Below the pieces are notes generated by a model. That model was not told the DNA's origin. It did no database searches and saw only the letters and a program-made list of their open reading frames with translations. 64,000 nt of DNA from Acidobacteriota bacterium (GTDB lineage Bacteria > Acidobacteriota > Terriglobia > Terriglobales > Acidobacteriaceae): contig JAJZBZ010000003.1 in assembly GCA_021846275.1 (NCBI GenBank), positions 310,001-374,000 of the forward strand, in the 5' to 3' direction. A program made the translations under genes and the position numbers. This document shows positions 32,962 through 37,523 of this stretch, in pieces. Numbering within the stretch: the first letter of the stretch is position 1; each line of letters opens with the position of its first letter.

Positions 32962-34278
32962 TCAGACGCCAAAGGCCGCCGAAGCACCCACCCACTCCAT
33001 CTCGCGGTTGTGATCGACGCCCATCATCTTCCCGCGACCCAGCCGCACCAGGCTCATCGCCGCCGTCATCGGCCCGTCGTCCGGCCACGCATACAGAATC
33101 CGAATCTCCGCCTGCGTCCGCCCGTGCGGCGTCTCAATCGTCGGCTCAAATCGCATCCGCTGCTGCACCAGATACTGCCAGCGCTCGCCCGCCGGAATCG
33201 CCGCCAGCTCGGCATCGCTCGGCGCAAAGACAATCCCCTTGCCCGCAAAGGAAAACAGCGGCTTCAGCAGCAACTCGTCATACACCGCGCCCGGCGACCG
33301 ATGCTCCGGCAGCGGCACACCGGCCAGTCGCAGCGCCTCATAGCCCGGCCCAACTCCCGGACCCACCCCCGGCCCGTCCAGAAAATCCGACAGAAACGCC
33401 GCCGGTGGCACCGCCCGGTGCGCCCGCATCGCGCTGCCCCCCACCGTCCCGCTCAGATACGGCAGCGCAAACTTACTCACGCGAAAATACCAGTTCGGAT
33501 GCCCGGCCCACTCCACCTCCCAGTCCGCCTCCAGATCAAACGGCAGCCTCACGCACTTCGCCATCATCTCGTCGGCAATCGCGCGATTGTAAATCCGCCG
33601 AATCTCCACCCGCCTGCCCGTCGCATCGCGATACGCCAGCCGCCGACCCACCGGCTCCAGCCGCGAGATGTCCACCACGGCAATCCCCAGCCGCTCGGCC
33701 GTCACGCGAAAATCCGGCAGCGTCTTCTGCCGCTCCGGATCGACCTCCGTGAGCACCACCTGCTCCGGCCTGTGCCCGTCCACAATCGTCCGCCGCAGCA
33801 GCTCCCAGTAGCCAGCCTCGTCCAACCCACTCAGATACATCCGCAGCTCACCATAACGTTCGCCGCCCAGCCCATACGCGCCACGGTATTCCTCGGCCAG
33901 AACCGCCTGATAACCGAAGACCGACGGGAAGGCCTGCAACTCGACCAGGCGCGGCGTCAGCTCTCCATCCTCGCCGCGCACCAGCGCAAAATCCGCCGTC
34001 ATGAAGTGCGGATGCGCGCTCTCGCCCGCCACGCGATACCCGGCGGGAATCGACTGCTCGGCCGCCGCCAGATACCCCGCATCGCCCAGCAAACGCTCCG
34101 TCAGTTCGCGGCCCGTCTCCGCCAGCTCGTCCAGCAGCCCCTGCGGCAGAAAGACCGGCGTCTCCGCCACGCGAAACCCGATCGGCATGCCGCAGCGCCG
34201 CTCCAGCGCCGCCAGCAGCCCCCTGTAAGCCGCGTCGCTGTACCGCTCGTTGAACTCCCGCCGCAGCCGCTCGATCAC
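32962..34278 (-). CDS. ATP-grasp-like protein, unknown substrate
   Basis: A 438-residue cytoplasmic protein. It was not matched to a named enzyme. Features reminiscent of ATP-grasp ligases are a Lys-loop LLKPLFSFAGKGI, a late acidic stretch QAEIRILYAW and a C-terminal MSLVRLGRGKMMGVDHNRE with Arg/Asn, the order in which such enzymes bind ATP-Mg. Early conserved-looking motifs are HPHFMTADFALVR and LVELQAFPSVFGYQAVL. A Gly-Pro-Val repeat (GPGVGPGVGPG) forms a flexible loop near residue 300. ATP-grasp enzymes join a carboxylate to an amine or thiol. The gene is flanked on both sides by copies of an ACCCAAAAG-type element. Confidence 0.55.
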   Translation of the reverse strand: MIERLRREFNERYSDAAYRGLLAALERRCGMPIGFRVAETPVFLPQGLLDELAETGRELTERLLGDAGYLAAAEQSIPAGYRVAGESAHPHFMTADFALVRGEDGELTPRLVELQAFPSVFGYQAVLAEEYRGAYGLGGERYGELRMYLSGLDEAGYWELLRRTIVDGHRPEQVVLTEVDPERQKTLPDFRVTAERLGIAVVDISRLEPVGRRLAYRDATGRRVEIRRIYNRAIADEMMAKCVRLPFDLEADWEVEWAGHPNWYFRVSKFALPYLSGTVGGSAMRAHRAVPPAAFLSDFLDGPGVGPGVGPGYEALRLAGVPLPEHRSPGAVYDELLLKPLFSFAGKGIVFAPSDAELAAIPAGERWQYLVQQRMRFEPTIETPHGRTQAEIRILYAWPDDGPMTAAMSLVRLGRGKMMGVDHNREMEWVGASAAFGV

Positions 34279-34435
34279 GCTCGCCTCCGTTCCGGTCGGA
34301 TTTTCCGTCCGGCTTCAACCCCGCCCAACCCACTGCGTTCAAAGAGTTTACTCGACCGCCACGGGATTGTATCGCGAAAACCGCCCCCCGTGCCGCAAAA
34401 AGGCGCTGAAACGTCACCAAAAGTACAAAAAAATT

Positions 34436-34470
34436 ACCCAAAAGCAGTATCTTGGTTACCACTTTTGGGT
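34436..34470. promoter_or_regulatory. Inverted repeat upstream of the repeat-protein gene
   Basis: ACCCAAAAG (34436-34444) and CTTTTGGGT (34462-34470) are perfect 9-bp inverted arms around 17 bases. The left half, together with CAGTATCTTGGTTACC, resembles 32865-32891 upstream of the PilZ gene. Operator or RNA hairpin. Confidence 0.4.
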
Positions 34471-34482
34471 TACCCTTGCCTT

Positions 34483-34548
34483 AGTTTGGCCCAGTTTGGC
34501 CAGACAATTTCCAATTTTGATCCAAATTTGATCCAAATTCGATCCAGG
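34483..34548 (+). repeat. Short direct repeats in the leader of the repeat-protein gene
   Basis: Two copies of a 10-mer, AGTTTGGCCC and AGTTTGGCCA (34483-34502), then three copies of an 11-mer, TTTGATCCAAA, TTTGATCCAAA and TTCGATCCAGG (34516-34548). The last copy runs into the AGGAG Shine-Dalgarno. Near one helical turn per unit, so they may be stacked regulator sites. Confidence 0.5.
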
Positions 34549-34557
34549 AGAACCCCC

Positions 34558-35016
34558 ATGAAATCGACCTTTGTCCGCCTCGCCGCCGTCGCCGCCCTCA
34601 CCGTCTCCACCTCCGCCGCCTTCGCCGCACCCTCATTCGGCCCTGGAATTCCATTCCCTTGCCCTACAACCGACTGCCCCACCGTTGCATCCACCAGCTT
34701 CGGCCCCGGAATCCCCTTTCCTGACCCAACCACCGGCTCGTTTACCAGTGCATCTGTGAAGAGCTTCGGCCCTGGAATTCCCTTCCCTGACCCAACCACC
34801 GGCTCCTTTACCAGTGCATCTGTGAAGAGCTTCGGCCCTGGAATTCCCTTCCCTGACCCAACCACCGGCTCCTTTACCAGTGCATCTGTGAAGAGCTTCG
34901 GCCCCGGAATTCCCTTCCCTGACCCAACCACCGGCTCCTTTACCAGTGCATCTGTGAAGAGCTTCGGCCCCGGAATTCCCTTCCCTGACCCGACCACCGG
35001 CTCGTCAATTTTGTAA
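34558..35016 (+). CDS. Secreted protein of near-identical 22-residue repeats
   Basis: A 152-residue protein with a signal peptide (residues 1-23, ending AFA) and an AGGAG Shine-Dalgarno 7 bases upstream. The mature part is six repeats: a divergent first unit of 21 residues, four units of exactly 22 residues with the core SFGPGIPFPDPTTGSFTSAS followed by VK, and a final shortened unit ending GSSIL. Lys occurs only at the end of each repeat, so cleavage after Lys would release identical peptides. No Cys in the repeats apart from two in the first unit; no membrane span. No family was recognised. Either a repetitive, Pro-rich extracellular structural protein or a multi-copy peptide precursor. Two unknown genes, the first coding for a membrane protein, follow downstream. 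Confidence 0.75.
   Translation: MKSTFVRLAAVAALTVSTSAAFAAPSFGPGIPFPCPTTDCPTVASTSFGPGIPFPDPTTGSFTSASVKSFGPGIPFPDPTTGSFTSASVKSFGPGIPFPDPTTGSFTSASVKSFGPGIPFPDPTTGSFTSASVKSFGPGIPFPDPTTGSSIL
34696..35016 (+). repeat. 66-bp in-frame tandem repeat
   Basis: Four complete 66-bp units (34696-34761, 34762-34827, 34828-34893, 34894-34959) and a partial fifth to the stop. The units differ by only a few, mostly synonymous, bases, indicating recent expansion or gene conversion. A more diverged copy precedes them at 34633-34695. Confidence 0.9.
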
Positions 35017-35120
35017 GTTCTTAATGTTTTGCACGAGGGTGACGAAGACTGACGATAGTACGAATGCGTTTTAGGGAATTTTTGCGTCGGGGCGCGTTTG
35101 GAGCATAATCATGTTCTGGG

Positions 35121-35918
35121 GTGTTTCCGTTGAGTTTAGAACTCACATCCATCGGCTCAACAGCATTAGCTGAGATGGTTCTTGTCGCAGTTTTTGCTTC
35201 TAAAAGGGCATGGGCAGGGAGGAGCATTTTTTTTGCTTACATCGTCTGGTCTCTTCTCAGCGATATCGTCTTCCTATATCTCGACGCAACGAATCGCAAT
35301 GTAACGCTGACTCCGTACATTGTTGAACTCGCCATCGACTCCGCGCTCCAATTCTGCGTCATTGCGGAGATCGCATGGTCAACCATCAAGCCCTTGCGCA
35401 ATTCTCTGCCGAAGGGACTGGTTTTCTTCCTGCCGCTGCTGCTCCTCGCGATTGCAGCCCTTTGCTGGCCGTTTGCCACCTTGGTGGTTCCGACACACCT
35501 CAGAGCGCACGGTTACGCGAGTCTGGTCCTCAACCAGACGGTCGCCATCCTGCGCATCGCGTTCTTTCTTCTGCTTGCCAGCTTCAGCCAGTTCTTCTCC
35601 ATCGGCTGGCGGGACCGCGAGATGCAGATTGCCTCAGGACTCGGTTTTTACGCTGCCATCTCGCTCGTCGTGGCCATCATTCACTCGCACGGCATGGTCG
35701 GACCACAGTACCATTGGCTCGATCTCGTGACCTCCTTTGGTTACCTTGGTACATTGGCCTATTGGGTCGTCTGTTTCGCACAAAAAGAGCCGGAAGCACG
35801 AAAAATCAGCCCACAGATGGTACGTTTTCTGGTATCAATAGGGGGAACGGTTCAGGCAGAAAGACTCGCGCTTGAAACCGCCGTGAAGAAGAAACCGGGC
35901 AATCACAATCACTTTTAG
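35121..35918 (+). CDS. Multi-span membrane protein, unknown
   Basis: A 265-residue protein with about seven hydrophobic segments, including IFFAYIVWSLLSDIVFLYL, GLVFFLPLLLLAIAALCW, ILRIAFFLLLASFSQFF and LVTSFGYLGTLAYWVVCF, and a basic cytoplasmic tail ending KKKPGNHNHF. No family was recognised, though similar seven-helix proteins are frequent in Acidobacteria. A GTG start is assumed; ATG 35175 is possible. The next gene begins 11 bases after the stop, so they form an operon. Confidence 0.7.
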   Translation: MFPLSLELTSIGSTALAEMVLVAVFASKRAWAGRSIFFAYIVWSLLSDIVFLYLDATNRNVTLTPYIVELAIDSALQFCVIAEIAWSTIKPLRNSLPKGLVFFLPLLLLAIAALCWPFATLVVPTHLRAHGYASLVLNQTVAILRIAFFLLLASFSQFFSIGWRDREMQIASGLGFYAAISLVVAIIHSHGMVGPQYHWLDLVTSFGYLGTLAYWVVCFAQKEPEARKISPQMVRFLVSIGGTVQAERLALETAVKKKPGNHNHF

Positions 35919-35929
35919 GGGATTTGGTA

Positions 35930-36457
35930 ATGTTGCTTCCGTTACTTCAGGTCATCTTCCTCGGTGCCTTGCTCCTTTATCTCGCCAAGTGGCGAGGCAG
36001 CATGCGCCGTCGCAGCATCAAAAGCTGGGACCAGCTCTTCTGCCAGCTTCGCACCGACTGGAGCGCGCACGCCGTCTGCGATCAGCTTCTCTGGAGCGAG
36101 GGCATGAGCGCGACCCACGAAAATATCTGGGACAAGGTGAACGGTCCTTACGGCCTGTGGGTCATGTATCAGAATGCCCGCGTGCTGCTGGAGATGGCCG
36201 ACTTCGCCGCCAAACACGCTTCTCCCGATTCCCCGGTCGATCCCCTGCTGCTGGAGTCCATCCGCACCGACGCCATGCAGATTCGCCTCTACGTGCTGAT
36301 GGCCATCATGCAGTACGGCCTGCACGCGATCACTGCCGGTGCGCGCATCAATGCCTGGCGCGCCGCTGAAACTTACGTCCTGATGTCAGCTCGTCTCACA
36401 CGGATCATGCAGGAGCACGCCGCATTGCAGCTTCCCACCTTCGTCGCCGCGATGTAG
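35930..36457 (+). CDS. Hypothetical protein with N-terminal membrane anchor
   Basis: A 175-residue protein: an N-terminal hydrophobic segment (LPLLQVIFLGALLLYLA), a basic stop-transfer (KWRGSMRRR), then a helical domain with HENIWDKVNGPYGLWVMYQNA. No family was recognised. It starts 11 bases after the upstream membrane gene (AGGGG Shine-Dalgarno inside the gap) and is followed by a strong terminator, closing a two-gene unit. Confidence 0.7.
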   Translation: MLLPLLQVIFLGALLLYLAKWRGSMRRRSIKSWDQLFCQLRTDWSAHAVCDQLLWSEGMSATHENIWDKVNGPYGLWVMYQNARVLLEMADFAAKHASPDSPVDPLLLESIRTDAMQIRLYVLMAIMQYGLHAITAGARINAWRAAETYVLMSARLTRIMQEHAALQLPTFVAAM

Positions 36458-36489
36458 TCCCGCTGTTCGAGTCCTGATCCGCAGAAACC

Positions 36490-36526
36490 AACAACAAAGC
36501 CCCGGCGAGCCGGGGCTTTGTTGTTT
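36490..36526. terminator. Bidirectional rho-independent terminator
   Basis: AACAACAAAGCCCCGG and CCGGGGCTTTGTTGTT form a 16-bp stem around CGAG, ending in T-rich sequence on the plus strand and mirrored on the minus strand. It separates the convergent gene at 35930-36457 from the aldo/keto reductase. Confidence 0.85.
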
Positions 36527-36542
36527 CCCTCAGAAGAAATCC

Positions 36543-37523
36543 TTACGCCACGGGATTCTCCGCAAGAAACGCCTGAATCCGCGCGTACTCCTCATCGCCA
36601 ATCCGGAAGCTCAGCGCCGGAGCCAGACCCTTCACCTGCTCCGGGCTGCGTCCGCCCACAATGGCCGCGGTAATCGCGGGGTTGTGCAGCGTCCAGGCAA
36701 CGGCCACCACGCCCGGCTCCACGTTGTGCGGCCTGCCGATCTCGCGCAGCAGTTCCACCAGGCGCAGATTGCGGCTCAGGCGCGGCTCGTTGAACTCAAC
36801 CGCCCGCCGCCGCCAGTCGTCTGCCGGCATTGCGGCCACGCGCTCGGCCGTCATCCGCCCCGTCAGCAGCCCGCTCACCATCGGCGAGTAGTTGATCACG
36901 CCGATCCCCTGCTCCAGGCAGTAGGGCAGAATCGCCTCACCCACCGCCGGGCGCAGCATCGAGTACGGCGGCTGCAGGCTCGTCACCGGCGCAATCGCCT
37001 GCGCGCGCTTGAGCTGCTCCACGTTGAAGTTCGAGACGCCGATCCAGCGAATCTTCCCCGCCTTCTGTTGCCGCGCCAGCTCGCCCCAGCCTTCTTCAAT
37101 TTCAGCTTCAGGATTGGGCCAGTGAATCTGGCACAGGTCAATCGTCTCCGCGCCCAGCCGCCGCAGCGACTCGTCCACTTCCTCGGCCACGCTCGCCGCC
37201 CGCAGCGAACGATAAATCTTCCGCTCGCCATCCCAGCGCATCGAGCACTTGGTGAAGAGCAGCGGCCGCTCGCTCATGCCCTTCACCGCGCGGCCCACAA
37301 TCGTCTCCGAGTGGCCCAGCCCATAAACCGGCGCCGTGTCAATCCAGTTGATGCCCGCGTCCAGCGCCGCGTGAATCGCCTCGACCGAGGCGTCGTCGTC
37401 CTGCGGACCCCAGGCAAACTCCCAGTTTCCGCCGCCAATCGCCCAGGCACCAAAGCCAATCGAGGTCAACTCCAGGTCCGAGTTGCCCAGCCGTTTCTTT
37501 GCAAAAACATTCTCCGTGGTCAT
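36543..37523 (-). CDS. Aldo/keto reductase
   Basis: A 326-residue NADPH-dependent oxidoreductase. The catalytic tetrad is visible: Asp and Tyr in DTAPVYGLGHSE, Lys in LLFTKCS and His in CQIHWPNP. The GVSNFN and NYSPMVSGLLTG segments are family-typical. The ATG at 37523 is chosen since earlier in-frame codons are not conserved. Substrate unknown. The aminopeptidase gene lies upstream on the same strand, about 117 bases away. Confidence 0.9.
   Translation of the reverse strand: MTTENVFAKKRLGNSDLELTSIGFGAWAIGGGNWEFAWGPQDDDASVEAIHAALDAGINWIDTAPVYGLGHSETIVGRAVKGMSERPLLFTKCSMRWDGERKIYRSLRAASVAEEVDESLRRLGAETIDLCQIHWPNPEAEIEEGWGELARQQKAGKIRWIGVSNFNVEQLKRAQAIAPVTSLQPPYSMLRPAVGEAILPYCLEQGIGVINYSPMVSGLLTGRMTAERVAAMPADDWRRRAVEFNEPRLSRNLRLVELLREIGRPHNVEPGVVAVAWTLHNPAITAAIVGGRSPEQVKGLAPALSFRIGDEEYARIQAFLAENPVA

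Follow-up and report, generated by a model that had tools for sequence, protein, structure and literature searches.

Tandem-repeat secreted peptide genes of Acidobacteriaceae adjoin a variable seven-helix membrane protein gene and may encode pheromone precursors

In the fungal pheromone systems alpha-factor/Ste2 of S. cerevisiae and P-factor/Mam2 of S. pombe, the precursor has a signal peptide followed by tandem copies of the peptide in variable number, the receptor is a seven-helix protein with its N-terminus outside, and ligand and receptor diversify. One study of S. pombe describes 4-8 repeats in map2, the P-factor gene, and diversity of both P-factor and Mam2 (PMC6342294). In the Gram-positive pherotype loci ComQXPA and Agr, the peptide gene adjoins the gene of a polytopic membrane protein whose N-terminal part is variable, as is the ligand, and whose remainder is conserved. 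In Agr, the ligand and the N-terminal membrane part are variable and the cytosolic part is conserved. For ComP, PMC4008528 likewise describes a variable N-terminal part and a conserved cytosolic part. Acidobacteria are among the commonest soil bacteria and little is known of their communication. Acyl-homoserine lactones were the only signals found by word search in one review of these bacteria (PMC7661733), and a word search of a comparative-genomics paper did not find quorum, peptide or pheromone (PMC5900883).

The locus analyzed here lies in a stretch of acidobacterial DNA of 64 kb, referred to as the window, and comprises a secreted peptide gene (34558-35016, forward strand, 152 aa), a seven-helix protein gene (35121-35918) and the gene of a one-helix protein whose helical domain is placed in the cytosol (35924-36457). 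The two downstream genes, which the first-pass annotation did not mention, carry most of the evidence. As in the fungal systems, there is a signal peptide with tandem copies in variable number and a predicted N-out seven-helix protein, and both diversify. Unlike those systems, the module is bacterial, the window protein has no dibasic sites, the seven-helix protein has no receptor sequence match and the putative receptor gene is directly downstream of the precursor gene. Fungi have a G protein where the module has a helical third protein. As in the Gram-positive loci, the peptide gene adjoins the gene of a polytopic membrane protein, here a putative sensor, and a variable ligand and N-terminal membrane part are joined to a conserved remainder, a mosaic that is absent in two close pairs of loci and slight in one. 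Unlike ComQXPA and Agr, the module has a Sec-type signal peptide, tandem units and an Acidobacteriota host, and Pfam and NCBIfam show in its proteins neither a histidine-kinase or response-regulator domain nor one of ComQ or AgrB. Because none of these domains was found, nor a Kex2-type site, the module falls outside both known systems; by analogy it may work like either of them while belonging to neither.

The open frame at 34558-35016 begins with the segment MKSTFVRLAAVAALTVSTSAAFA, judged by eye and with a hydrophobicity script to be a signal peptide (residues 1-23, 34558..34626) that ends in AFA, in agreement with the initial prediction of a secreted protein. A divergent first unit with two Cys and no Lys, APSFGPGIPFPCPTTDCPTVAST (34627..34695), is followed by four identical 22-residue units SFGPGIPFPDPTTGSFTSASVK (34696..34959, starting at 34696, 34762, 34828 and 34894) and a shortened last unit FGPGIPFPDPTTGSSIL, also without Lys, which together with the stop codon occupies 34960..35016. 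Tandem Repeats Finder placed an array at 34696-35003 with a period of 66, 4.7 copies, 97% matches and a score of 574; the remaining 15 rows for the 64-kb window scored only 50-66. The near-identity of the 66-bp DNA units noted in the first-pass annotation was thus reproduced, but its six identical copies, each ending in Lys, are four: the outer two units differ, and Lys, which after the signal peptide occurs only in the full units, is found in 4 of the 6. The four Lys of the mature protein, one per full unit at a constant position and none elsewhere, are isolated and there is no Arg, so that dibasic (Kex2-type) sites are lacking. All 13 pairwise nucleotide differences among the four full units are synonymous third-position changes. 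Pfam and NCBIfam searches gave nothing above cut-off for this protein or for the other two of the module. Matches of the repeat protein to DUF1850 (22.2 bits, cut-off 27), WW_USP8 (10.5, cut-off 23.8) and a paeninodin lasso model (11.5, cut-off 27) were discarded, and its best match among PDB chain sequences had an E value of 0.14.

The repeat protein matched 36 of 300 genomes at E ≤0.01, most of the weak matches not being counted as relatives. Among weaker matches that were translated, G003, G002 and G101 proved to be relatives, in addition to the stronger matches within the genus; that in G248 was an unrelated Lys/Thr-rich repeat and was set aside. When the repeat protein was the query against genome contigs, no locus was confirmed by tblastn. 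On reading the DNA, the repeat gene was seen in 12 of 15 genus genomes, counting its own (G000, G001, G002, G003, G005, G006, G008, G009, G010, G011, G012 and G014). In the genus, the fast-changing repeat gene sits in a conserved locus, between a 438-aa gene of opposite orientation and the gene of the polytopic membrane protein; the contigs of G007 stop at the site, and no 438-aa gene was detected in G004 or G013. Contigs of G010 and G012 break off within the array, as would happen if short reads fail to span it.

The units share a kernel of about G/S-P-x-x-P-x-P, which in the window is GPGIPFPDP. The unit is FGPGIPAPLPQSKGYATTG in G009, FGPGIPSPLPTTKGFAASN in G005, FGPMIPPPLPTSGFVASS in G011, SPIIPMPNPTKGFVASHVEVGY in G006, FGPGVPAPLPPTTNGNKGTKVA in G014 and ENGPTLPMPNPKDIHFVA in G003, and peptides released in Terracidiphilus gabretensis S55 (L098) would contain GPMLPTPTPPGG; the units of G008, FGPAIPFPDPTTGFVASS, and L091, GPGTPVPIPQTGLIALN, contain no Lys. 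As 27 of 52 unit types lack Lys, release of the peptide by a Lys-directed protease, which had been suggested for the window protein, is not supported as a rule. The spacers showed no conserved protease site, only a tendency to Ala. Over 45 arrays, Ala stands before the kernel at -3 in 19, at -2 in 16 and at -1 in 12, against a share of about 10% of unit residues; the kernel edges, set mechanically, are in a few cases out of register. Copy number ranged from 1 to about 24 among relatives, and the units are species-specific. The longest arrays were those of L226, with 23 full units of the EGPAGTVRNPWGSVA type (about 24 in all), and L197, with 19 units GPMTPAPTPPGPTFA. At the other extreme, the single-unit relatives L112, L143 and L162 have mature chains of only 15-19 residues, the best evidence for a single unit being the active part. 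In L200, L204, L207 and L250, the seven-helix gene is preceded by a tandem set of two or three nearly identical genes for short secreted peptides, copy number being raised there by gene duplication rather than by units inside one gene.

Minimal changes between units of the same array were 344 synonymous and 80 nonsynonymous over 44 arrays, while for the window unit about 72% of changes made at random are expected to be nonsynonymous, and in 17 of the 44 all full units were identical in protein. This count covers 44 of 54 arrays; L194 and L217, for which the script took a wrong frame, and arrays without at least two full units were dropped; L149 and L211, both included, may be the two ends of one broken array. 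In L197, the 19 identical peptides are encoded by 18 distinct DNA units, so there selection, and not just recent duplication, preserves the identity. The initial interpretation of recent expansion or homogenization consequently suits the window array, with its 97% DNA identity, but not the family as a whole. Conservation of the units fits a multi-copy peptide, and would be expected of a structural repeat as well.

The 438-aa neighbor (32962..34278, reverse strand), a landmark outside the module, had one match in each of 13 of the 15 genus genomes and was without a Pfam or NCBIfam match. With its alignment as the query, 443 relatives were found in the genome-contig collection and the best 80 of these loci were fetched. 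Sixty of the best 80 of 443 extend at least 1.78 kb upstream of this gene; 24 of them carry both the peptide and the seven-helix gene, one (L095) carries the peptide on a contig cut off within the array, and the remaining 35 show neither gene. A signal-peptide scan of these 35 loci returned four ORFs (L122, L129, L147 and L157), none of them family-like by eye. Since the 35 belong mostly to other genera (Edaphobacter, Granulicella and others), the co-occurrence of the module genes is partly a clade effect. The titles of 78 of the best 80 loci name Acidobacteria, Acidobacteriaceae, Acidobacteriales or a member genus, the exceptions being L138 ('bacterium') and L155 ('Rhodanobacteraceae'), which bears out the acidobacterial origin guessed at the outset. 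L155 (JANXWZ010000084.1), a bin with an acidobacterial neighbor gene, is possibly mislabeled or mixed. Named carriers of the module include T. gabretensis S55, Acidicapsa dinghuensis 4GSKX (L100) and Occallatibacter savannae AB23 (L108).

A profile of the seven-helix protein (A3) detected relatives in 221 of 300 sampled genomes of the family, representing 69 of 79 genera. At the level of the class it matched 42 of 200 genomes, 18 of them in four other families with weak E values of 3e-11 to 1e-5, and at the level of the phylum 17 of 297, all in the same family. Forty further seven-helix loci were fetched, some of which overlap the 80 (L227, L229 and L230). An upstream secreted-peptide ORF, or its cut end, was read by eye in 39 of the 40; the peptides of L215, L224 and L232 had been missed by the script and were found on reading the translations. 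The 438-aa neighbor was within the fetched stretch in only 5 of these 40 loci. Every one of the 24 syntenic loci that extend far enough has the third gene, which a stop truncates in L093. Among the 40 further loci 38 have it, L228 and L232 being without it. Within the fetched DNA, the seven-helix gene of L228 (G249:C6:7790-8533, reverse strand) has neither a visible peptide gene upstream nor a third gene, and it possibly encodes an orphan receptor. The order differs in L206, with the third gene upstream of that for the peptide, and in L107 the seven-helix reading frame is disrupted. Outside the family, L252 (family f6) has an array DGSGPVPPFPPKPPVMLLA, and no array was seen in most of the other out-of-family loci examined. 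With a profile of the third gene (A4), matches were obtained in 58 of 300 genomes of the family and in 4 of 297 of the phylum. A second branch (profile A5) was found in 17 of 200 class genomes; since A5 also picks up the third gene of the window, at 5e-14, both branches are homologous.

Loop charges indicated that the second protein of the module has seven helices with an N-out/C-in topology. Residues 1-154 (35121..35582, forward strand) contain helices 1-5, are hypervariable and form the proposed ligand-binding part; residues 155-265 with the stop codon (35583..35918, forward strand) contain the third cytosolic loop, helices 6-7 and a tail helix and form the conserved half. An AlphaFold model from 25 sequences had seven long helices and the tail helix (pLDDT 85.7, pTM 0.78). 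The best Foldseek matches of this model were mostly GPCRs, none of them significant (no E <0.001). VIA-align gave Z scores of 10.8-12.7 over 184-219 aligned residues among the matches listed, in which the only families were GPCRs and GPCR-like bundles. The top score, 12.7 for LYCHOS, may according to the tool's own note mean only a common helical arrangement; the de novo designed GPCR-like bundle 8oyx scored 11.5, and Ste2 (7ad3_A) scored 10.9, which is under the trusted level for helical bundles. The protein had no sequence match among PDB chains, Ste2 included. The predicted seven-helix N-out/C-in bundle with its tail helix thus resembles LYCHOS, the CGRP receptor, a class T GPCR and Ste2, but differs from them in having no PDB sequence match or significant Foldseek E value, and such an arrangement shows neither homology nor function. 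The model suggests a GPCR-like arrangement and no relationship is claimed. The third gene (35924..36457, forward strand) encodes a highly conserved protein of 177 aa, with a mean column identity of 71%, and was modeled as an N-terminal helix followed by an all-helical domain (pLDDT 81.7) that had no significant match in the PDB. Pfam and NCBIfam showed neither a kinase nor a response regulator nor any other recognized output domain in the module.

The window was compared by blastn with five close relatives, G011, G009, G005, G008 and G006. The flanking DNA was 72-78% identical on the left and 76-84% on the right. In G011, G009 and G005, the mature repeats (in G005, those after unit 1) and codons 1-154 of the membrane gene could not be aligned. 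In G008, the repeats aligned weakly, in pieces of 66-86%, and the membrane gene aligned from 35523; in G006 the repeats were unalignable and the membrane gene aligned from 35305. The downstream block therefore began at 35582-35583 in three of the five comparisons and at 35523 and 35305 in the others. In G011, the edges of the blocks, 34625 and 35583, fall at the end of the signal peptide and at codon 155. In protein, the window and the same relative (as locus L084) are 88% identical in the third gene, 87% in the neighbor, 87% in residues 155-265 and 36% in residues 1-154. Residues 1-154 were less similar than residues 155-265 in 251 of 253 pairs, and the 15 pairs with a third-gene identity of at least 0.8 had mean identities of 0.87 for the third gene, 0.76 for the neighbor, 0.47 for residues 1-154 and 0.76 for residues 155-265. 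The close pairs without the mosaic are L110/L113 and L108/L115, and that with a slight one is L116/L120.

The history of the seven-helix gene also departs from that of its surroundings. In the tree of residues 1-154 (support in parentheses), the window groups with L089 (100) and L088 (97), and L084, L085 and L087 group together (94); the tree of residues 155-265 has the same six-species division (89). In the tree of the neighbor and third gene, the window goes with L084 (58), L085 (88) and L087 (80), and L088 and L089 are apart. The division of the seven-helix protein coincides with that of the kernels, P-D/N-P-T in the window, L088 and L089 versus P-L-P in L084, L085 and L087; these types were assigned by inspection once some identities were known, and the agreement is rank 1 of only 10 possible splits. 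When the neighbor and third gene were allowed for, unit similarity was correlated with the similarity of residues 1-154 (partial r 0.226, p 0.0045) and of residues 155-265 (partial r 0.404, p 0.0005) over 23 loci. These are 23 of 25 loci, with units registered by hand; L093 and L107 were left out, and no unit was entered for L102. After residues 155-265 were also allowed for, residues 1-154 had no further link (partial r 0.105, p 0.13). Because they add nothing beyond residues 155-265, the unit type is linked with the whole seven-helix gene and not specifically with helices 1-5. That helices 1-5 would bind the peptide is proposed on the basis of their variability.

The export signal, the conserved tandem units, the three-gene module, the species-specific units, the mosaic and the six-species agreement, all read from sequence, point slightly more toward than away from a multi-copy peptide pheromone precursor inherited together with a seven-helix receptor. 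Of the two functions first offered for the repeat protein, that of a multi-copy secreted peptide precursor gains from the relatives with a single peptide of 15-19 residues, the conservation of the units in protein and the adjoining seven-helix gene. The precursor would be exported by Sec by means of its own signal peptide and cut within the spacers, giving several copies of one proline-rich peptide. The free peptide would then be sensed by the variable helices 1-5 of the seven-helix protein, predicted to have its N-terminus outside and its C-terminus inside, and the signal may be relayed through the third loop, helices 6-7 and the tail to the membrane-anchored third protein, resulting in a regulated output. 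Peptide and seven-helix protein would diversify together, such that each species listens to its own peptide. It is conceivable, though we lean against it, that Acidobacteria possess a large pheromone family comparable to the fungal mating loci, with up to about 24 peptide copies, a kinase-free GPCR-like receptor, a small membrane-anchored helical relay protein and a pherotype cassette that is exchanged between species.

The possibility was considered that the Pro/Gly repeats form a filament or coat, with the seven-helix and third proteins as the assembly machinery. Conserved repeats in variable number are typical of structural proteins, and arrays as long as those of L226 and L197 exist. However, the single-unit chains encoded at the same locus cannot make a repeat protein, unit sequence and unit length differ between close species, and the window protein has no anchor domain in Pfam or NCBIfam. 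The structural or matrix role that had been the other initial suggestion is disfavored by these single-unit members and by the mosaic in the seven-helix gene, and appears quite improbable. A peptide bacteriocin with its immunity protein has a modest chance of being the correct explanation; the repeats would raise the dose, the seven-helix protein would shield the producer and an arms race would drive diversification. This would account for the linkage, the species-specific variation and the multi-copy dosage. The units, however, are short, proline-rich and of little charge (-1 to +1 in 45 of 52 types, +2 or +3 in 7), an exporter domain is found in none of the three genes, a highly conserved helical third protein is not expected in an immunity cassette, and the conserved cytosolic side of the seven-helix protein would suggest signaling rather than shielding.

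There is also a small chance that, rather than sensing the peptide, the seven-helix and third proteins act in its export, cleavage or modification. Adjacency and co-variation with the substrate are equally expected of a processing enzyme, and unit similarity follows residues 155-265 at least as strongly as residues 1-154. ComQ of ComQXPA is likewise variable, as stated in PMC4008528. Against a processing role, the peptides bear their own Sec-type signal peptide and no enzyme domain was matched in Pfam or NCBIfam. Finally, the repeat protein might be a graspetide-like RiPP precursor modified by the divergent neighbor, which by eye resembles an ATP-grasp enzyme. Graspetides can have repeated cores. 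This alternative is very improbable, as 35 of the 52 unit types have neither Asp nor Glu (the window unit has one Asp), and the neighbor occurs without the peptide at the 35 module-less loci, whereas in 35 of the 40 further module loci it does not appear in the DNA that was fetched. A Sec signal peptide is not known from graspetide leaders.

If the pheromone reading is true, the module would represent a new type of communication between cells, with its kinase-free seven-helix sensor as a bacterial counterpart of peptide GPCR signaling. The module is called new because none of its proteins is in a named family and no known bacterial signaling system is built alike; no paper on a peptide/seven-helix module was among those listed in searches of the open PMC set. 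The claim to newness would fall if the function proves different. The idea is directly testable in the named cultured strains, since the peptide of a species can be read from its genome and synthesized.

Upstream of the peptide gene, a conserved element at 34428..34490 (forward strand), which contains CCACTTTTGGGTTACCCT at 34459-34476, is a putative promoter. It aligned as separate blastn blocks with G009, G005 and G008, and a pattern TACTTTTGT-GTA ... CcacTTTTGGGTTA-TCT was seen by eye in most of 37 aligned upstream regions, those of L112, L124 and L149 being without it. When the element was used to seek a regulon in its own genome, a single site was obtained at ≤3 mismatches (reversed control, 0). 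The one Rfam match within 34200-36600, to RsmY, was dismissed at 23.1 bits versus a gathering score of 57.

Among the best 80 of 443 loci, 34 contigs end ≤7 kb upstream of the neighbor gene, 18 of them ≤0.85 kb. Many of the breaks are inside the array, and they include L091, L096, L097, L099, L101, L105, L109, L117, L124, L149 and others. Because assemblies tend to break at the peptide gene, peptides of this kind may be under-represented in annotations. Short direct repeats TCCAAATTTGA (11 bp, 3.4 copies) occupy 34510-34546 of the window, downstream of the promoter-like element and ahead of the start codon; among the 37 aligned upstream regions, a similar stretch was present only in L084.
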